A DNA stretch of 64,000 nucleotides from Methanopyri archaeon (lineage in GTDB: Archaea; JAADCQ01; Methanopyri; Methanopyrales; Methanopyraceae): NCBI GenBank assembly GCA_013154335.1, contig JAADCQ010000016.1, positions 1-64,000 of the forward strand, given 5' to 3'. Every line of letters begins with the position of its first letter. Within the stretch, counting starts at the first letter, position 1. Below, one piece after another: positions 1-35,545 of the stretch. A program made the translations under genes and the position numbers. The notes beneath the pieces are model-generated. The model did no database searches, had not been told where the DNA came from, and saw only the letters and a list, made by a program, of their open reading frames with translations.

Positions 1-266
1 ATGTTTGACAACGAGGATAAAATGAATATTATTATGCATAGTTTAACTGGATCTATTGATTTACTGGCGGATTGTTGGTTTATTATCCAATAAGTGAATA
101 GCTGAAAACCCAACAAGAACAGGAAGAACGAGACCTTCGGGACGCTGTTACCCTCCAGGAGGTACTGGAAGGCGTACACGTGGCTCGCTCCAGATTCGAA
201 CAGCGCCACCGCGGCGATCATGAGTAAGGGGCCCAATACCGGCGGTATCTTGTCACAGGATACCAT
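1..266 (-). CDS. Membrane protein, 5' part only (gene continues past the left edge)
   Basis: The minus strand stays open from an ATG at 266 to the window edge, about 88 codons. The start overlaps the end of the upstream dolichol-kinase-like gene by 14 bases, which suggests translational coupling. The visible part has hydrophobic segments at about residues 12-23, 45-58 and 75-86, so it is an integral membrane protein. I do not recognise the family. Composition changes within the gene: the first 50 codons are GC-rich and the rest is strongly AT-rich, matching the mosaic seen in the next genes. By position it belongs to the envelope or lipid operon 1-3606. Confidence 0.6.
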   Translation of the reverse strand, partial: MVSCDKIPPVLGPLLMIAAVALFESGASHVYAFQYLLEGNSVPKVSFFLFLLGFQLFTYWIINQQSASKSIDPVKLCIIIFILSSLSN

Positions 267-849
267 ACCACCATCCCGAGGCCAGGGCGACGGCTATCGG
301 GATGGTCAGGTTGTCGTTCGGTGTCGGGAGGCTCTCGACGGTCATCCCGACGGCGGAGCAGAACGTTGACGCCGCGAGATCGCCGGTGATCAGCGCCGAC
401 GCCAGGCTCGCCGCCACGAACCCCGAGAGGCTACCCTCGACGGTCTTCCTGGGTGAGTACGGTATCCGCGTCGTCCCGAACCTCGTTCCGACTATCGTCG
501 ACACACTGTCCCCTACAGATAGCACCGTTATGACTATATCCATGCATTTAACATTCAATGTTATAGCTCCAGCTATCATTACTCCTATAATAAAGTAAAT
601 CGTACCTTGACCCGGTAGTTTCTCCATTTCCTCAGGCCGTTCAAACTTTTCTACCAACTCTGAAGCTATAGGGACGTTCCTACCACACTTCAATGCATAC
701 GCCGCTACTAAGCCAAGTACTGATAGTATCCCCATCAATATTTCGAATCCTATTATGCCGAACAAGTGCAACGGTATTAGGAACGATAATCCCACCGTCA
801 TATGTATTATCTGCCTTCCTATCTCCCTTTCTTCACAACATCTTCTCAA
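253..849 (-). CDS. Dolichol/phytol kinase-like CTP-dependent membrane kinase
   Basis: A polytopic membrane protein of about 198 residues. The motif GDSVSTIVGTRFG followed by PYSPRKTVEGSLSGF is the signature of the SEC59/VTE5/CTP-dependent kinase group, related to phosphatidate cytidylyltransferases, which use CTP on polyprenol-type or lipid substrates. At least five hydrophobic segments are visible. I place the start at a TTG (849), overlapping the glycosyltransferase by 17 bases. An ATG at 906 is in frame, but the extra residues are only an out-of-frame reading of the conserved glycosyltransferase end. The neighbouring MurG-like enzyme suggests a role with isoprenoid-linked sugars. Substrate is inferred, not shown. 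Confidence 0.72.
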   Translation of the reverse strand: MRRCCEEREIGRQIIHMTVGLSFLIPLHLFGIIGFEILMGILSVLGLVAAYALKCGRNVPIASELVEKFERPEEMEKLPGQGTIYFIIGVMIAGAITLNVKCMDIVITVLSVGDSVSTIVGTRFGTTRIPYSPRKTVEGSLSGFVAASLASALITGDLAASTFCSAVGMTVESLPTPNDNLTIPIAVALASGWWYGIL

Positions 850-1927
850 TAATTTTTGCAGCTCTGTATGCCCCCTTCCCGTCGGCGAGCTTGTAGTGTG
901 GTACATTTATATTCATCGCTTTTTCTATCGCGTTTTTCATGCTAACATAATTAATATTCTCCGGGTCTAATCGCACACCTATGCCCCTATTTTCAACTCT
1001 TTCGGCGTTAACTTGCTGCTCTGGATGGTCAGGAATAGGAATAACAACCATGGGTTTTCTCAAACACATACATTCGGATATAGTCGTATGTCCAGCATGT
1101 GATATGACCAGCTTTGATACTTTTATTAATTCTATTAAGTCATGAACATAATCGAATTTTATCCCATATTCCACGGGAATATTGTGCTTAGTAACCACTA
1201 CTGGGAACAGATCTTTCCCAAAGCTGTTACTTACTATGTCAACTACCAAAGATACTATATCCCTAACCATCAATTTTGAGCCTCCGGTGGTTACCAAAAC
1301 TATATCCTTATCATCGGGTAGTCCATATTTTTCAATTATATAGTCATCGCTTGGAATTTCATTAATTCTCTTCTTAAGAATAGGTCCTACCCATATTATA
1401 TTGTAATTATCATGATCCGGTAAAACGTATGTATCATCTTTAACGTCAGGGATGATAACACAGTCCGTAAGGGATAGTACGTACTTATACATGGAATTGA
1501 AAATTCGTAGTGCATAATTAATTTTAGGAAACAACAACATATTAGTGATGAAAACGTTAGGGATATTCAGCTTGTTGGATGATATAATCGACTGTATTTG
1601 ACAATCGGAAACGGTAACGTTATACCCAGATTCTCTGAATATTCTTTTATCCACTTCTATTCCCGCATAAAACTTAATTAACATGTCAAAGGAGTTCTTA
1701 ATGACCTTCCTTATGTTAATAGTTCCGGATTCTTCGAAAATTTTAAATTTTGGAGATTCGTACACTTTTTTGTCCGGGAATTCGTTCATAATTATATATT
1801 TCGGTAGGCCGAAGCTACTGAATACTAAATCAACTCCTATATCCGTTAATTCCCTGGCAATTCCAATACTTCTATACACGTGTCCAAGACCGACTCCAAA
1901 TATTGACATATATACTTTTCCACTCAA
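833..1927 (-). CDS. MurG-like (GT28/GT1) glycosyltransferase
   Basis: A GT-B glycosyltransferase of about 364 residues. The N-terminal strand leads into GVGLGHVYRSIGIARELTD, the acceptor-side glycine loop of MurG/UGT-like enzymes. The C-terminal half holds SHAGHTTISE and PDHPEQQVNAERV, the nucleotide-sugar site. I chose a TTG start at 1927 because the later ATG at 1909 would cut into the first beta strand. It begins directly after the DUF2070 stop and overlaps the kinase-like gene downstream, so the three are likely co-transcribed. The gene is strikingly AT-rich compared with the rest of the window. Sugar donor and acceptor are unknown; an isoprenoid lipid is a reasonable guess. Confidence 0.78.
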   Translation of the reverse strand: MSGKVYMSIFGVGLGHVYRSIGIARELTDIGVDLVFSSFGLPKYIIMNEFPDKKVYESPKFKIFEESGTINIRKVIKNSFDMLIKFYAGIEVDKRIFRESGYNVTVSDCQIQSIISSNKLNIPNVFITNMLLFPKINYALRIFNSMYKYVLSLTDCVIIPDVKDDTYVLPDHDNYNIIWVGPILKKRINEIPSDDYIIEKYGLPDDKDIVLVTTGGSKLMVRDIVSLVVDIVSNSFGKDLFPVVVTKHNIPVEYGIKFDYVHDLIELIKVSKLVISHAGHTTISECMCLRKPMVVIPIPDHPEQQVNAERVENRGIGVRLDPENINYVSMKNAIEKAMNINVPHYKLADGKGAYRAAKIIEKML

Positions 1928-1929
1928 CT

Positions 1930-3606
1930 TTACATCCCCGAAGCTACCCCTATTGCCGCTGATATAAATATAACACACGCGAAGGTTAATGGTAGAGTCT
2001 TCCTTGTTATTTCCCATATAGCGTCTGTTACATAAGATAATACCTGATAGCTGCCAGGCCCTGTTACCTTTATATTTATGAAGTCTTCAACGAATATGGC
2101 CTTGCATTTTTCGACGCTTTCCATGGCCTTCTTAACGACATCTTTAGTGGTTTCTCCCAACTTTTTCAATTCGTTTTTTGATATCTTCCATCCAAGTGGA
2201 TTGTAGCCTCTAATGTTAACTTCGTGGGAGTCAGTGGTACATACTATTACGTCACATCCGAATTCCTTTGATATTTCCTTTTCTATGTATTCTCTAACGC
2301 GTTTTTCTATGTTGTTCGCATCATATACTACGTAGCAAAAGTCCCCTACTCCGACCTTAAAGTACGCCACTGAGACGCCTCCTTTGCCTACTCCGGAAAC
2401 GTCGATTTCATCGTTACTGAATCCTACGTTTATGTAATATTTTTCAGAGCAGCTGACTGACTCTATGCATTTTATCGCGTCTTTATACAGTTTCCAGTGG
2501 TCTTTTGTCAGGGGGTATACCCTTCCTTTGTCGGGATCTCCAAAAGAATTATGCGCGTCTATAACCCATCCGTTTATCTCTCTTTCTATCTGCATGCCGA
2601 CCCCGACGTCTATGTCGTCGCTGGGTTCCGGGTACTTGGAGAGGACTACTATGGGTACGTCCCCTATCACCTGTACGCGTGTGTCGGTGGATCTTCCCTT
2701 TTCGACGGTCGACGATCGTCCGTAGCCTTCGTCGGTTTCTTCGGCTTTCTTCACGAGTTCCAGCACCTTGTCGACCACCTTCAGGGCGTCTTCCCTGGTG
2801 GCGGGGTTGTAGTCGTGGGTCGTGGTGGAGTGGAAGACGAGCGCGGTCACGCCTTTTTCCTTGAGTTTCTTCACGATCATGCCGGGTAGGTCGCCTCCTC
2901 CCACGTGTCCCAGGGGTCCGGGGTGCACCCAGGGGATGACGAAGGCCCCTACGATCCGGCCGTCTCTTTCCCGTTTGAAGGCGACTACTCTGACGGGTAC
3001 CTTCACGGTTCTGACGGTTTTCAGGTTGGAGAAGATCTCGTCGAGTGCGGATTCCCTCCCGGATTTGAAGCAGAGGAAGTCTTCGATGGCTTGGGTGGCT
3101 GGTACCCCTAGGCCGGGTGTGGAGATGGAGTCCAGGGTTACTATGGTGAGGATCCCTATGAGGAGGGATGTGCCTGCTATCAGGGCTGGGACGTACCAGG
3201 ATGGGGGTCCTATCCACGGTACGGTCCAGGCCATGCCGTTGAGGGGGAGGAAGGTGGCGAGGACGGCGATCTTGAGTTTGGACATTCGGGTGGTGCCTAG
3301 GACGCCTAGCGTCGTGAGTAGGGAGGCGGTGCCGTAGGTTACGCACCAGGCGGTGGGGCCGGCCAGGGCGCCGAGGGCGGGGAGGAGGGTGTGAAGGAGG
3401 GTGAGGAACATCCACCTGTTGGGTGGCGTGTCGGCTCCTAAGATTTTATCTAACGCGATCAGGACGCCGGAGAACGTCAAGGACGTTAGGATCGGTATGA
3501 TGGTCCAGGGTTGTATCGCGTAGGCGGTCGGTACGAGGGCGCTCCAGAACGCGGCGCAGGTTTTCGTCCCCGGGATCCTGATCCATATGCGCTTGAAGCT
3601 CGCCAA
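1930..3606 (-). CDS. DUF2070 family membrane protein
   Basis: 558 residues. About five hydrophobic segments fill the first 165 residues and one more sits at the C-terminal end. The soluble middle carries the polar motifs WVHPGPLGHVGGGDLPG (about 224-240), DAHNSFGD and TTDSHEVN, which mark the archaeal DUF2070 family. The His/Asp-rich motifs resemble a metal-dependent hydrolase centre, but no activity is established. The start is TTG with GGGGGAACACC upstream. It is the first gene of the minus operon that includes a glycosyltransferase and a dolichol-kinase-like protein. Base composition switches abruptly at about 2520: the N-terminal two thirds is GC-rich and the C-terminal part AT-rich. Confidence 0.85.
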   Translation of the reverse strand: MASFKRIWIRIPGTKTCAAFWSALVPTAYAIQPWTIIPILTSLTFSGVLIALDKILGADTPPNRWMFLTLLHTLLPALGALAGPTAWCVTYGTASLLTTLGVLGTTRMSKLKIAVLATFLPLNGMAWTVPWIGPPSWYVPALIAGTSLLIGILTIVTLDSISTPGLGVPATQAIEDFLCFKSGRESALDEIFSNLKTVRTVKVPVRVVAFKRERDGRIVGAFVIPWVHPGPLGHVGGGDLPGMIVKKLKEKGVTALVFHSTTTHDYNPATREDALKVVDKVLELVKKAEETDEGYGRSSTVEKGRSTDTRVQVIGDVPIVVLSKYPEPSDDIDVGVGMQIEREINGWVIDAHNSFGDPDKGRVYPLTKDHWKLYKDAIKCIESVSCSEKYYINVGFSNDEIDVSGVGKGGVSVAYFKVGVGDFCYVVYDANNIEKRVREYIEKEISKEFGCDVIVCTTDSHEVNIRGYNPLGWKISKNELKKLGETTKDVVKKAMESVEKCKAIFVEDFINIKVTGPGSYQVLSYVTDAIWEITRKTLPLTFACVIFISAAIGVASGM

Positions 3607-3640: not shown

Positions 3641-4141
3641 TTGCCGTACGTGTACTTGGGTAAGGGTGGGCGTTGGATGTTCCTGCCGGACAGGGACGAA
3701 GAGGAGGAGAGGGAGGCGGTGATCGGGTACAGGGTGGAGGAGAGGGATGATCACGTGCTCGTGTGTGGGTTGGACGATGAGCCGGGCGAGGGTTTGCCCG
3801 GGGAGAGGGTGTTCGTGTACGGGACTTTGACGGATCCGGTGACCGTGGCGAGCGTCCTCGGTAGGGTTCCTAAAATCCTGTACCCCGCGGTGTTGAGGGG
3901 TTATCGTCTCGCGTTGGAGAGCGTGGCCGGGAGGTACAACACGGTGGTGCCGGAGGAGGACGGGGTGGTGAAGGGCGCGCTTTTGTTGGGGTTGAGCGGG
4001 GAGGAGTTGTCCGTCATAGATAGGTACGAGGGGTATCCGGCCCTGTACGATAGGAGGGTGGAGGTGGTGGAGACCCCGTTGGGGGACGCGGAGGCTTACG
4101 TGTACGTGGCGCGGGCCGTCGCGGAGAGGTCAAAAGGTTAA
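3641..4141 (+). CDS. AIG2/gamma-glutamylcyclotransferase-like protein
   Basis: 166 residues from a TTG start with GGGGAG seven bases upstream. An N-terminal extension of about 56 charged residues precedes VFVYGTL (57-63), the phosphate/gamma-glutamyl binding loop of the AIG2/GGCT fold. The acidic catalytic residue expected after the middle strand is probably in VIDRYEGYP. Family members release 5-oxoproline from gamma-glutamyl amines or trim similar amide groups. The substrate here is unknown. The start lies 34 bases from the divergent DUF2070 start. The N-terminal extension is not a typical part of the family and its role is unclear. Confidence 0.75.
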   Translation: MPYVYLGKGGRWMFLPDRDEEEEREAVIGYRVEERDDHVLVCGLDDEPGEGLPGERVFVYGTLTDPVTVASVLGRVPKILYPAVLRGYRLALESVAGRYNTVVPEEDGVVKGALLLGLSGEELSVIDRYEGYPALYDRRVEVVETPLGDAEAYVYVARAVAERSKG

Positions 4142-4166
4142 GTACGTGGTGGGCGTCGTCGTCGAT

Positions 4167-4492
4167 GGCGGCGGGCTAGGCCGGCGGGCTGGCGGTCCGC
4201 TGTAACCCGAAACCCGCCTTACGCGGGGGCCGAAGCCGAGGGGGCGGCCCGGTACCCCTCGGGTGTCCCGCCCGCCGGGCCGACCGAGGAACCACCGGTC
4301 CTCCGGGGGCCCGAGGTGGCGGGGCCGCCGCCGGAAGGCGGCGTGCCACCGCCTTTGCCGGGGCACCGGGTCAGGCCCGAGAGGGAGCAGCCCACCCCGG
4401 ACTCGGGCCGCTCGGAGGGTAACCGGGGGGAGGTCGGCCCGGTGGGTCCGGGCCCCGAGGGGCCGGGTCCACCCCTCGGCGTGCCCGCCGCC
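4167..4492 (+). ncRNA. ffs: 7S signal recognition particle RNA
   Basis: About 326 nt, GC-rich and outside any good coding frame. The 5' end GGCGGCGGGC pairs with GCCCGCCGCC at the 3' end (4483-4492), the terminal helix of archaeal SRP RNA. The Alu-domain 5' part (GGCCGGCGGG, then CTGTAACCC) follows the archaeal pattern. Helix 8 is clear at about 4370-4396: GGGTCAGGCCC, then GAGAGGGAGCAGCC, closely matching the SRP54-binding site of 4.5S/7S RNA. It guides ribosome-nascent chain complexes to the membrane with SRP54 and SRP19. Ends are set by the terminal helix and may be off by a few bases. Confidence 0.93.
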
Positions 4493-4522
4493 GTTATGCG
4501 AATCGTTAGTCCTCGCGTAACG
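4492..4522. terminator. Inverted repeat just 3' of the SRP RNA
   Basis: CGTTATGCGA (4492-4501) pairs with TCGCGTAACG (4513-4522) with one wobble. It starts at the last base of the SRP RNA and runs into the stop codon of the convergent methyltransferase gene. It could mark 3'-end formation. A similar CGTTATG repeat follows the tRNA at 38271. Confidence 0.35.
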
Positions 4523-5063
4523 AACGGTCCCGCCACATGTCGAATTCCTCGAGTTTTTCCTTGATCCTTCCCGGGATACCGGGTGGGGATGCATCGCTCA
4601 GGAAGCCCGAGTCGGCCCTCACGCGTACGCCGTCGATCAGGGTCACTTTCTGCACGAACTCGCACAGTCCCGCGTTCCTCACGATGGAGTCCCTGGGCCT
4701 CAGGGTGACTCCCCACGTGTAGAACACCTTGAAGACGGTGTCCGGGAACGCCCCTCCACCCATGTCGATCGCTAGGACGTCACACCCGCCTTCCGTGACC
4801 GATAGGACGTTCTCGAGGGTCTCGTAATCCCTAGCGTCCCCCTCGACGTGTACCAGGTTGTCGTGTTCCCTTTCCAGCTCTCTCATCGCTTCGGCGGCGT
4901 CTTCGCCGTAGTCGACCGTGACGACGAGTTCGGGCTCCTTCCTCAACACCATCCGCGTCGCGGCGCCCCTGTGGGGCCCTATCTCCACGACCACGTCTCC
5001 CTCCCTGACCAAGCCCGTTAACTCCCGCCTGTACGCTTTCACGTCGTTCACGAGGACGATCAA
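4506..5063 (-). CDS. Class I SAM-dependent methyltransferase, substrate unknown
   Basis: 185 residues. VVVEIGPHRGAATRMV (about 25-40) is motif I of Rossmann methyltransferases, VVTVDYG gives the acidic end of strand 2, and VLAIDMGGG the strand 4 motif. The rest lacks a recognisable target-recognition domain. It is convergent with the SRP RNA and divergent from cbf5, with a shared 64-base gap holding a TATA-like CTTTTTAA. The closeness to SRP RNA and cbf5 makes an RNA substrate tempting, but this is only inference. Confidence 0.7.
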   Translation of the reverse strand: MIVLVNDVKAYRRELTGLVREGDVVVEIGPHRGAATRMVLRKEPELVVTVDYGEDAAEAMRELEREHDNLVHVEGDARDYETLENVLSVTEGGCDVLAIDMGGGAFPDTVFKVFYTWGVTLRPRDSIVRNAGLCEFVQKVTLIDGVRVRADSGFLSDASPPGIPGRIKEKLEEFDMWRDRSLRED

Positions 5064-5083
5064 GGTCGGACTCCCTCCCTCGT

Positions 5084-5092
5084 CTTTTTAAC
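5084..5092. promoter_or_regulatory. TATA-like element between methyltransferase and cbf5
   Basis: CTTTTTAAC sits in the 64-base divergent gap, about 36 bases before the cbf5 start and 21 bases before the methyltransferase start. AT-rich boxes like this are rare in the GC-rich spacers here, so a shared or single archaeal promoter is plausible. Confidence 0.4.
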
Positions 5093-5127
5093 CGCGATCA
5101 CCCGCGGGAGGGCGTCGGGGTGTCGAT

Positions 5128-6129
5128 TTGGGAGAGAAAGGGGAGAGGAGGCTCCCCTTCGAGAGGGAACGGGAGATGGTGACCAAGGTGGAGGACGTGG
5201 AGACGGATCCCAGGTACGGTTGCCCCCCGGAGGAGCGTCCGATAGAGGAGTACATCAGGAAGGGAGTCATCAACCTGGACAAGCCGGCCGGTCCCACGTC
5301 GCACGAGGTCGTGGCGTGGGTTAAGGAGATCCTAGGGCTCAGGAAGGCCGGTCACGGCGGTACCCTCGACCCGAAGGTCACGGGTGTGCTGCCGGTCGCC
5401 CTGGAGGACGCGACCAAGATCATCCAGACGCTGCTGCCGGCGGGTAAGGAGTACGTGACCATCATGCACCTCCACGGGGATGTGGACGACGAGGAGTTGG
5501 AGCGCGTGGTCAAGGAGTTCGAGGGTACGATCCTGCAGAGGCCCCCGTTGAGGTCGGCGGTCAAGAGGAGGGTCAGGCCGAAGAAGATCTACTACATCGA
5601 CATCATCGAGAGGGACGGTAGAGACGTCCTGATGCGTGTGGGTTGCCAGGCCGGTACCTACATCCGTAAGCTGTGCCACGACATAGGCGAGGCGTTGGGA
5701 GTTGGGGCTCACATGGCGGAGCTGAGGAGGACGAAGACGGGACCGTTCTCCGAGGAGAACGCGGTGACGCTGCACGACGTGAAGGACGCGTACGAGTTCT
5801 GGAAGGAGGAAGGGTGGGAGGAGCCGCTCAGGCACGTGATCAGGCCGATGGAGGAGGGGTTGTCTCACCTACCCAGGATAGAGATCCGTGACACCGCCGT
5901 GGACGCGATATGTCACGGCGCGGATCTGGCGGCGCCCGGTATAGTGCGCGTCGAGAAGGGGATCCAGCCCGGGGACCTCGTGGCCATGTTCACGTTGAAG
6001 GGTGAAGCGGTGGCACTGGGCGTGGCGAAGGCGTCCTGGAGGGACATGTTGCGGGCGGATAGGGGCATAATGGTGGACACGAAGAGGGTGCTCATGGAGC
6101 CGGGCACCTACCCGCGGGCGTGGGGTTGA
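5128..6129 (+). CDS. cbf5: Archaeal Cbf5/TruB RNA pseudouridine synthase
   Basis: 333 residues. The catalytic motif GHGGTLDPKVTG puts the nucleophile at Asp81. Upstream lie VINLDKPAGPTSHEV and the archaeal N-terminal patch LPFEREREM, which supports the TTG start at 5128 over the ATG at 5176. Residues about 250-330 form a PUA domain. In archaea Cbf5 works with Nop10, Gar1 and L7Ae on H/ACA guide RNAs, and also makes Psi55 in tRNA. The 3' end overlaps the convergent tfrB by 22 bases. Confidence 0.95.
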   Translation: MGEKGERRLPFEREREMVTKVEDVETDPRYGCPPEERPIEEYIRKGVINLDKPAGPTSHEVVAWVKEILGLRKAGHGGTLDPKVTGVLPVALEDATKIIQTLLPAGKEYVTIMHLHGDVDDEELERVVKEFEGTILQRPPLRSAVKRRVRPKKIYYIDIIERDGRDVLMRVGCQAGTYIRKLCHDIGEALGVGAHMAELRRTKTGPFSEENAVTLHDVKDAYEFWKEEGWEEPLRHVIRPMEEGLSHLPRIEIRDTAVDAICHGADLAAPGIVRVEKGIQPGDLVAMFTLKGEAVALGVAKASWRDMLRADRGIMVDTKRVLMEPGTYPRAWG

Positions 6130-32793: not shown

Positions 32794-35545
32794 AGGTCGA
32801 CGTCTCACCCGTCGTGCCCGTCGTCGTGGACGTCGTGGTCGGTGTCGTGGTTGGCGGTTGTATCGACGTGGCCGACGTTCCGGTCGACGTTGGCGACGGT
32901 GAGGGTACCGGGTAGGAGTAAGAGGATGGAGAGACCCCCGTTCCCGTGGTCGTGGACGTCACCTCCGAGGTCGCTTCGACCACCAGGTTGGATAATTCCG
33001 CCGTGAACGACACCGGGAACACCTGCAGTACGGGTGTCTGCCATATCGCCGGTAACACCGTGTTGAGCGCGAGCGCCGGATCGAAGTCGACGTAGGGTGG
33101 GCTCGCGTTCCAATCACCCAACACCGTCTGGATGAGGGTAGACGGGTATCCGAAGCCCGACGGTCCGACGAATATGTCGAAGGTCCACTGAGAGTTGAGG
33201 ACCCCGACGAGGGTCTTCAGGGCGTTGAGGTCCTTCGCCGATAGCGGTTTGAGTAACGACGCCAGGGTATCCAGGAACGTGAACTGGAACCCGGTTCCGC
33301 TCGCCACGATGGGTGACGACGGCGTCCCGTTCTCCGACACGAAAGTGCTCAACCACTCGGATACCCTCGTGAACACGTCCCCGGACGTTGGAAGGGCCGG
33401 GAACTTGACGGTGAGTTCGGTCGCGGTCTCGAACGCCGTCTTGCCCGTCGCCATGGCCGCCGCGTAGTTCGTGGGAGCCGTCGCCGACATGTAAACCAGG
33501 TAATCCGTGCCCGGCGTCCAATCCATCACCCTGACTCCCGGCACGGTGGATATGGTGACGTCGACCTCGGACGAGAGGGAACCAAGGTCCACGCTGGAGG
33601 GATGCGACGTTTCCTCCACCACGCACACCGGTTTCAGGGGAACGACGCATTCGTCGGAGGAGAGTTGGGAGGCGAAAGATAGGGTACCGGGAGCCGATGA
33701 CCCGTACATGTACTGCAACTGGCCTACCAGAGGCATAACGGTCATCTCGCACAGGTCCCATCCGTTGCTAGTACTGTTCGCGAAGTTAATCATCAACAGC
33801 TGTACTTCTTTACCACCTATATCCACATACGTTGTTATTCCTATCTGACTTACTTGATCTTTATTATTGCCCTTGTTATCCTCGTAATATTGAGTTATAT
33901 CGAATTCAAATATTGGATCAAAGGTATTTTCAATCACTACGTCGCTAAATACATACTCATCAGCATTGCTATCGTATGTCTCCTTGGAATTAAAGTTTAT
34001 AAACGTCCTGATGCTGAAGTAATCGTTATTGTAAAACGTGTAAATAGCGGCCAGCCCTCCAATTGGCACATATCTATTATTCTCATACCATTCGACTCCA
34101 GGGAACGGGATAGCCAGTATATCATATCCGAAGTTGGTAGTAGTGTTCATCTCCAAGAACTTATCGAGTGAGTAATATGGCTTAACATCTGATGATAGCA
34201 GTATTAAGAATTTCATGGTGCTAGCATTGGCGTTGTATACTACATTGACTGATGATATATCGTCAAATCCTTCAACAGTCGCTGTTACCTGTGACGTGGA
34301 TGAGGATGACCACTTTCCATATGCTCTAAAGTACACCAATATGGGAACGTCGTAAGTCTGGTTATTCGAGTAAAACGGGAGTACTGTTATTGATCCGTCC
34401 TGTAAAGATACTATAACATACCTTGCAAATACCACGTACATCGGAGGAGGAGAAGTTGTATTAGAGGTGCTGGATGTGAAGAAATTATCTTGAAACGTAT
34501 TGTAACCGGGCGAGTTCAGTAAATGAACTTCTAGCCATGCTACTAAACAGTATGCTTCGGTACCGTCGGATGATAAATACGATGCGAACGATATGGAGGA
34601 AGCATCCGATGGACAGTGTGGGGATGCCCATAATAGTGCGGTATACAGTATTTCTAAGCCACCACTGGTAACTTTTAATGTCTTGAACCAAACGCCATAT
34701 GTTCCCTTATGGTAACCTATAAACGATATCGCTACCAAGGGAGACTTGAGGATTCTCAAGTCGAAGTCTTGTATACCACTATCTTCTTCTATCCAGCCTG
34801 ACACGGAATTTGATACGACAGGGACGCCCGAATACGGGTACTCAACATTCACTACTGTCCATCCGATTTTCCCGTTGACATTGTACATAACGAGGTAGGT
34901 ATTGTCAATACCGGAGGAAGACTCTGATGAACTTATTAGAACAACTTTTATCTTGCTGGCCGATCCGCCTACCGGGATCTGTAGTGATCCCGTACTTTGA
35001 ACAGCGGATTGATAGTAAACGGGGTATGGGTATCCCGTTCCAACTAGGATCCTTTCGGTTATGGGAGTTATGTAGATATAATTATCGGATGAGTAAGACA
35101 CTAGTATAGGGATTTCCTCCGCCTGCGTTCCGCTTAATGATGATTGCATGATCACCGGGTTTGAAGCTGCAACACCTATTGCTGAAACGCTTTCTTCCAC
35201 GGATATAAAGCCAGCTGGGATCTTAACTTCGTCGTATCTAACAAGATACACCGATATTCCCTTAGCTGTTTCACTAGAAGTATACGTCGCTACCACTTCG
35301 CCTAGGTTATTCACAGGATAGGCCGAGTACACGGCAACATACTTGGTGTGATCTTGACATGTAGTCGAATTCACTGTGATGTTCTCGGCTATGGTGACCT
35401 CGGAATGAATCCAGGGGGCTAGGTTGGGCCACATCTGATTATATCTACTCTCCAGCACCTGCTGGAGCGGAGACGAGCACGAGGAGGCCACCGGGATGAC
35501 GCAGAGCGAGAGCATCACCAGGAGAAGGAGGGGAGCGCCCTTCAA
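32741..35545 (-). CDS. Large secreted surface protein
   Basis: 934 residues, TTG start behind GGGGGAAGTGG. A signal peptide is clear (MKGAPLLLLVMLSLCVIPVASS), with the first Cys at about 23 in SSCSS. The body is strand-rich and full of Ser, Thr, Asn and Tyr. The last 70 residues are a Ser/Thr/Pro linker (TTTPTTTSTTTGTTGETS) likely glycosylated. No C-terminal membrane anchor follows, so attachment is unclear. It may be an S-layer or cell-wall protein. Bases about 33770-35400 are strongly AT-rich while both ends are GC-rich. Confidence 0.8.
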   Translation of the reverse strand: MKGAPLLLLVMLSLCVIPVASSCSSPLQQVLESRYNQMWPNLAPWIHSEVTIAENITVNSTTCQDHTKYVAVYSAYPVNNLGEVVATYTSSETAKGISVYLVRYDEVKIPAGFISVEESVSAIGVAASNPVIMQSSLSGTQAEEIPILVSYSSDNYIYITPITERILVGTGYPYPVYYQSAVQSTGSLQIPVGGSASKIKVVLISSSESSSGIDNTYLVMYNVNGKIGWTVVNVEYPYSGVPVVSNSVSGWIEEDSGIQDFDLRILKSPLVAISFIGYHKGTYGVWFKTLKVTSGGLEILYTALLWASPHCPSDASSISFASYLSSDGTEAYCLVAWLEVHLLNSPGYNTFQDNFFTSSTSNTTSPPPMYVVFARYVIVSLQDGSITVLPFYSNNQTYDVPILVYFRAYGKWSSSSTSQVTATVEGFDDISSVNVVYNANASTMKFLILLSSDVKPYYSLDKFLEMNTTTNFGYDILAIPFPGVEWYENNRYVPIGGLAAIYTFYNNDYFSIRTFINFNSKETYDSNADEYVFSDVVIENTFDPIFEFDITQYYEDNKGNNKDQVSQIGITTYVDIGGKEVQLLMINFANSTSNGWDLCEMTVMPLVGQLQYMYGSSAPGTLSFASQLSSDECVVPLKPVCVVEETSHPSSVDLGSLSSEVDVTISTVPGVRVMDWTPGTDYLVYMSATAPTNYAAAMATGKTAFETATELTVKFPALPTSGDVFTRVSEWLSTFVSENGTPSSPIVASGTGFQFTFLDTLASLLKPLSAKDLNALKTLVGVLNSQWTFDIFVGPSGFGYPSTLIQTVLGDWNASPPYVDFDPALALNTVLPAIWQTPVLQVFPVSFTAELSNLVVEATSEVTSTTTGTGVSPSSYSYPVPSPSPTSTGTSATSIQPPTTTPTTTSTTTGTTGETSTFTVIPCPIPVPRRRAEG

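Follow-up and report, generated by a model that had tools for sequence, protein, structure and literature searches.

An AT-rich block with intragenic borders in a conserved operon of a Methanopyri archaeon: possible in-place replacement from a sister lineage

At one end of a contig from a Methanopyri archaeon, an operon shared with the related genomes contains an AT-rich block that begins and ends inside genes. We propose, with a probability of about 0.5, that this block was acquired by homologous replacement, the donor being an AT-rich sister lineage not yet sampled; that its edges are recombination junctions and that such a lineage exists are both things we infer.

The source assembly (G000), which is of the metagenome type, comprises 1,373,473 bases in 93 contigs (completeness 94.7, contamination 0.46). 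The window, i.e., the whole stretch analysed here, covers the first 64 kb of a contig of 94,255 bases and has a GC of 0.608. It was compared with four genomes of the same genus (G001 to G004), which genome sizes, GC and gene content suggest to be Methanopyrus.

The AT-rich block and its operon

Two runs of a two-state segmentation placed the main AT-rich block at 528–2589 or 514–2589, with a GC of 0.38, confirming the block that an earlier sequence-only reading of this DNA had described. Along the contig, an AT-rich piece (1–128) is followed by a GC-rich island up to 513, by the block up to 2589 and then by GC-rich DNA, forming an AT-GC-AT mosaic. The return to GC-rich sequence and the further AT stretch to the left, both pointed out in that reading, correspond to the island and the end piece. 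The features are as follows:

1–128, no strand: second AT-rich piece, GC 0.32, reaching the contig end (segmentation; GC3 change point at 95–116 in the gene at 3–266)
3–266, minus strand: first 88 aa of the gene that comes next in the operon, running off the contig end (ORF; weak alignment to the next gene of G001–G004; no Pfam family)
129–513, no strand: GC-rich island of ~390 bp separating both AT pieces (segmentation; distance ratio of 0.64 for the CTP-transferase part)
253–906, minus strand: CTP_transf_1 gene (dolichol-kinase/CTP-transferase type), 217 aa, N-terminal part AT-rich and C-terminal part GC-rich (Pfam; orthologues at the same site in G001–G004)
514–2589, no strand: main AT-rich block, left edge 477–528 and right edge 2563–2598 depending on the measure (segmentation and silent-site change points)
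833–2017, minus strand: glycosyltransferase ORF, entirely within the block (Pfam Glyco_tran_28_C; 42–45% identity to four same-genus orthologues)
1930–3606, minus strand: DUF2070 membrane protein gene, C-terminal part AT-rich and N-terminal part GC-rich (Pfam; full-length orthologues in G001–G004)
2564–3396, minus strand: DUF2070 codons 71–346 (276 codons), without third-position T on the coding strand (third-position counts)
3641–4141, plus strand: GGACT (gamma-glutamyl cyclotransferase-like) gene, plus strand G+T-rich (Pfam; third positions)
4169–4490, plus strand: archaeal SRP RNA gene, right end of a strongly strand-asymmetric stretch (Rfam RF01857; composition)

The block contains the C-terminal part of DUF2070, the entire glycosyltransferase gene and the N-terminal part of the CTP-transferase gene. 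The glycosyltransferase probably starts near 1927, as the orthologue ends match from about residue 33. The order DUF2070, glycosyltransferase, CTP_transf_1 and fourth gene is identical in all four relatives (4/4), in agreement with the earlier view that this is not a whole-gene transfer, the genes being positional orthologues. The matching stretch of the operon is GC-rich throughout in G001–G004 (GC 0.51–0.75); the composition therefore changed in place, on the line of G000 or on that of a donor. Reading frames and motifs are intact through the block. Just right of the SRP RNA gene, a gene-order breakpoint relative to G002 was observed at 4490–5128.

When 546 overlapping 1-kb windows covering ~288 kb of G000 were ranked (mean GC 0.621, SD 0.038), the lowest value, 0.357, was found inside the 514–2589 block. 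AT segments total 19,116 of the 626,336 bases sampled in G000, with other patches at 33765–35383 of the window, L067 17834–19012 and L157 1669–2902, and AT patches of up to ~1.4 kb are present in the G002 sample too. Thus, AT patches as such are not unique, and the 514–2589 block is the longest and the lowest in GC among those sampled. The patch at 33765–35383 lies in a 934-aa ORF without Pfam match, secreted-looking and Ser/Thr-rich, whose matches in relatives are short and weak; its left edge is abrupt too. The patch in L067 begins within a small GTPase-like gene and takes in the next gene, which has 35–39% identical relatives in three of the four other genomes.

GC3 drops from 0.78 to 0.43 within DUF2070 and climbs from 0.43 to 0.82 within the CTP-transferase gene, with no comparable shift in the orthologues of the relatives. 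The proteins of the block are AT-adapted (FYMINK 0.30–0.39 versus 0.11–0.21 in relatives over the same columns) and its codons are of the AT type (Ile ATA, Arg AGA). Since the third positions shift sharply, amino-acid content alone fails as an explanation; GC3 and the composition of the relatives rule it out as the sole cause.

Borders of the block

GC3 change points were located at 2583–2598 in DUF2070 and at 477–516 in the CTP-transferase gene, in addition to that at 95–116. In DUF2070, third-position T (T3) steps at codon 345–347, from 0 of 276 codons before to 39 of 211 after. The right edge is therefore inside DUF2070, as the sequence-only reading had it, and lies nearer to 2563–2598 than to the position 2520 first given. 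The left edge was rightly assigned to a kinase-like gene, a name acceptable for the CTP_transf_1 ORF at 253–906.

In width profiles of silent sites, a step was the best-fitting model at both edges of the main block. For T3 in DUF2070, scales of 8 and 24 codons cost 2.3 and 4.5 log units, respectively; for GC3 in the CTP-transferase gene, the losses were 1.8 at 12 codons and 4.9 at 24, which disfavours border scales above ~12 codons. At the right edge, GC3 in DUF2070 singles out a step less decisively (1.7 at 8 codons and 3.2 at 100). With all bases considered, scales above ~75 bp are disfavoured at the left edges, and the right edge fits a step as well as scales up to ~300 bp. Both edges of the 390-bp island are abrupt.

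In a set of 74 orthologue pairs with G002, defined as reciprocal best matches, DUF2070 shows the largest intragenic GC3 step (35.5 log units) and the CTP-transferase gene the third-largest (21.6), the largest within G002 being 15.2. The second-largest, in L148 (pair L148/L083), is a low-GC3 3' end that is present in G002 too. Steps common to G000 and G002 (L148/L083 and L164/L093) were considered as traces of a regime fixed in place, and neither supports one, L164/L093 being probably a recently shared gene. The edges do not coincide with the most conserved patches of the proteins: percentiles were 0.92 and 0.41 for two edge estimates in the CTP-transferase, 0.47 and 0.64 for two estimates in DUF2070, and 0.26 in the next gene. 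T3 change points in L160:150–4496 and L127:30–2060 came from spurious open frames fused to real genes and were not counted; DUF2070 was retained as an intragenic border because its alignment to relatives spans the whole length.

No clear step at the right border is seen in one measure, coding-strand third-position A+C (0.76, then 0.66, 0.74, 0.64 and 0.60). Strand asymmetry, or at least one local pressure, therefore acted on both sides.

Origin of the block

Phylogenetic trees of the DUF2070 N half (317 columns), its C half (211) and the glycosyltransferase (348), each including ten outgroup sequences, gave one topology, in which G000 is sister to the pairs (G001,G002) and (G003,G004) with supports of 91, 99 and 94, respectively. 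AT-rich vent methanogens, which the sequence-only reading had offered as relatives, are therefore not the source, and its two proposals, recombination and local mutation, both stay, the former with a sister lineage as partner. Of the two observations that this reading had set against itself, a common tree for both DUF2070 halves was found, and a shift due to amino-acid content alone was not.

The G000–G001 distance divided by the G001–G003 distance was 2.45, 1.78 and 2.09 in the AT parts (1.91 pooled), 1.60 in the GC half of DUF2070 and 0.64 in the GC part of the CTP-transferase. AT-directed changes, scored at sites where G002 and G003 agree, reached 0.268, 0.288 and 0.246 in the three AT parts, versus 0.148 (DUF2070 N half) and 0.167 (CTP-transferase C part) outside the block. 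They amounted to 0.020–0.126 in nine other genes, one of which (window 4130–4594) shares sequence with the SRP RNA and is probably not a true gene, and to 0.089, 0.175 and 0.215 in three L080 genes. Non-AT changes in the block (0.217, 0.110 and 0.138) fell within the span of all others (0.06–0.26). Taken together, the trees and the AT-directed change place the AT sequence in the same lineage and at a roughly equal depth.

The island lies nearer to the relatives than do seven genes of our choice out of twelve others (shared:unshared sites 32:11 versus 406:517, Fisher 1e-4), in a test that sets a 90-residue segment against gene averages. Its nucleotide identity to each relative is only 0.59–0.63, and it is therefore not a recent import from any of G001–G004.

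Both the abruptness of the borders and the AT-GC-AT mosaic speak for recombination junctions and, combined with the trees and the AT-directed change, point to replacement from an AT-rich sister lineage. A heat-loving, Methanopyrus-like archaeon would have taken up DNA of the same operon from this lineage, and the exchange would have ended inside DUF2070 (~2563–2598) and the CTP-transferase gene (~477–516), leaving a GC-rich remnant of ~390 bp with a further AT piece to its left. The GC-rich operon of the four relatives, the silent-site steps, the order of the mosaic and the largest GC3 step of 74 pairs all support replacement, as does non-AT-directed divergence that is ordinary for other genes. 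Moreover, fully AT-adapted proteins are expected for DNA long resident in an AT-rich genome. Against it, the strand asymmetry runs stepless across the right border, where GC3 alone is less decisive. No closer match to the genes of the block, and hence no donor, was found in 31–61 genomes searched or in two genome-contig scans, and none of the three trees was discordant. Donor-type and recipient-type sequence would differ at about half of the bases, and divergence of this extent strongly hinders ordinary homologous recombination.

A further point for replacement is that gene flow between the G000 and G002 lineages exists, judging from the silent identity of one gene pair. This gene (L164:2268–3530 / L093:2763–4079), without Pfam match, shows a G000–G002 silent identity of 0.74–0.93 versus a background of 0.57–0.77; it has several paralogues in G002 and was probably transferred recently between the lineages.

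The main rival reading, somewhat less probable, is a local substitution regime acting in situ: a long-running GC-to-AT change on both strands, for instance at a place unreached by GC-biased conversion or by some repair, adjoining a stretch of strand-specific A-to-G and C-to-T change. It explains the single tree inside and outside the block equally well and without any unknown lineage, and it agrees with the AT direction of the excess change, with the lack of a donor in the genomes searched and with the stepless passage of the strand asymmetry. G000 has other local composition regimes that are absent in the relatives (27 of 402 versus 0 of 366 ORFs). However, silent-site borders at the scale of tens of bases are difficult to produce by a regional bias, and the island with its two abrupt edges and the T3 jump also stand against such a regime. 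If local mutation is the cause, a gene can change its base composition over a few tens of bases, which goes beyond ordinary regional bias.

An assembly chimera of GC-rich and AT-rich genomes from the same sample is improbable. In its favour are a metagenome-type assembly in many contigs and the position of the block at the end of one of them; however, given that other contigs break at 91-base overlaps, a chimeric join would need ~91 bases of exact identity at each of three junctions between alleles that are about half identical, and neither frames nor motifs are disrupted. A distant AT-rich archaeon as the source, e.g., a vent methanogen, would suit the low GC and AT-type codons and is the least credible reading, as the trees keep G000 by the Methanopyrus-type genomes, both DUF2070 halves are 0.37–0.44 identical to Methanopyrus-type orthologues versus at most 0.26 to others, the operon order is conserved, and no gene of the block is foreign to the lineage or branches elsewhere.

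Strand-asymmetric domains and comparison with known systems

The strand asymmetry of silent sites may matter more than the AT block. Next to the block, DUF2070 codons 71–346 lack third-position T and the plus strand is G-rich; the GGACT gene, on the opposite strand to DUF2070, has G+T-rich third positions too, up to the SRP RNA gene. Strand-asymmetric ORFs were defined as having at least 200 codons and T3 <0.03 with A3 >0.12, or the reverse. G000 has 27/402 of these; by relative, their number was 0/35, 0/222, 0/79 and 0/30 in G001, G002, G003 and G004, respectively, in a tally of mechanically picked ORFs, some spurious, drawn from sampled stretches of unequal sizes. Compared to the G002 orthologue, third-position G+T was 0.95 vs 0.47 (L080:768–2093), 0.10 vs 0.46 (L136:4464–5456) and 0.22 vs 0.53 (L080:2029–7713), confirming the asymmetry, which is independent of gene direction. 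Kilobase domains with a G+T-rich strand were seen at L080:1–7713 (G000:C80), L136:2799–5456, L121:356–1783, L130:26–919, L139:4343–5104, L171:14–967 and L065:146–1108; in these, silent sites are near saturation (T3 or A3 near zero) and the genes are ordinary, e.g., aspartokinase-like, Topo VI B and NrpR.

At the contig ends of G000, the inward strand had a G+T of at least 0.60 in 13/112 cases and then in 3/20 further ends (16/132), and of at most 0.40 in 0/132, strong asymmetry always being inward, as if the gaps were centres of divergence. The mean shift in G+T was significant in the 112-end set and not in the 20-end set alone (p 0.55). AT blocks are not generally central to diverging keto-strand domains: outward G+T exceeded 0.5 in 37/72 flanks, and of 12 interior divergence points only that of the 514–2589 block is AT-rich. 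A search of AT-rich contig ends for a repeated element yielded only the 91-base contig overlaps, some paralogous ends and one multi-copy gene end. The contig starts L066:3–239, L160:1–141 and G000:C83:1–156 are each the 3' end of one multi-copy gene; L160 and L127, starting at or near such an end, run directly into strongly G+T-rich domains, and L066 does not.

A speculative and rather unlikely possibility is a new local mutational process, in which kilobase domains would undergo A-to-G and C-to-T change on one strand up to silent saturation, whatever the gene direction; the AT block, its borders sharp on a scale of tens of bases, would then belong to one such site and would not be imported. 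The domains would often adjoin unassembled gaps with the G+T-rich strand pointing away, as would be the case if many sites gave rise to forks or long single-stranded tracts. Considered as a possible replication origin, for which an AT-rich element with a switch in strand skew and an Orc1/Cdc6 initiator would be expected, the block has a skewed flank on its right and the contig end on its left, and is not AT-rich in the relatives. Cdc6_C had no match in G000, yet only 3/14 control genomes match. Such domains offer a way to test how replication begins, or how single strands become exposed, in this archaeon, which has no Cdc6_C match. Our literature search on Methanopyrus skew, origin or strand asymmetry, DUF2070, intragenic mosaics and local hypermutation found no report of the block or the domains.

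Mosaic genes arise in bacteria by homologous recombination, and Gubbins is a tool that seeks them. The block resembles these mosaics in its abrupt, in-frame intragenic borders at silent sites, its orthologous position and its mosaic order. It differs in that no donor and no discordant tree was found, and in a divergence at about half of the bases, far beyond that of usual partners. Since the topology is the same inside and outside the block, we do not file it as a proven recombination mosaic. If recombination is the cause, the lineage, so far GC-rich in this sampling, must also have an AT-rich branch, and exchange must have taken place part-way through conserved genes across very different base compositions.

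With a regional AT bias or a loss of GC-biased conversion, the block shares the AT-directed excess and the unchanged tree; unlike these, it changes composition over tens of bases at its borders, and a short GC island lies within the AT-rich region. Graded borders are absent at the left edges and in T3, and for right-edge GC on all bases a step and a grading over ~300 bp fit alike.

According to PMC5504354, Ori-Finder 2 failed to characterise the replication origin of Methanopyrus strain SNP6. The strand-asymmetric domains are similar to replication-type asymmetry with its G+T-rich leading strand (review PMC3269012) in that one strand is G+T-rich regardless of gene direction, whereas here the asymmetry is local (kilobases), nearly saturates silent sites and marks 0/366 ORFs in the relatives.
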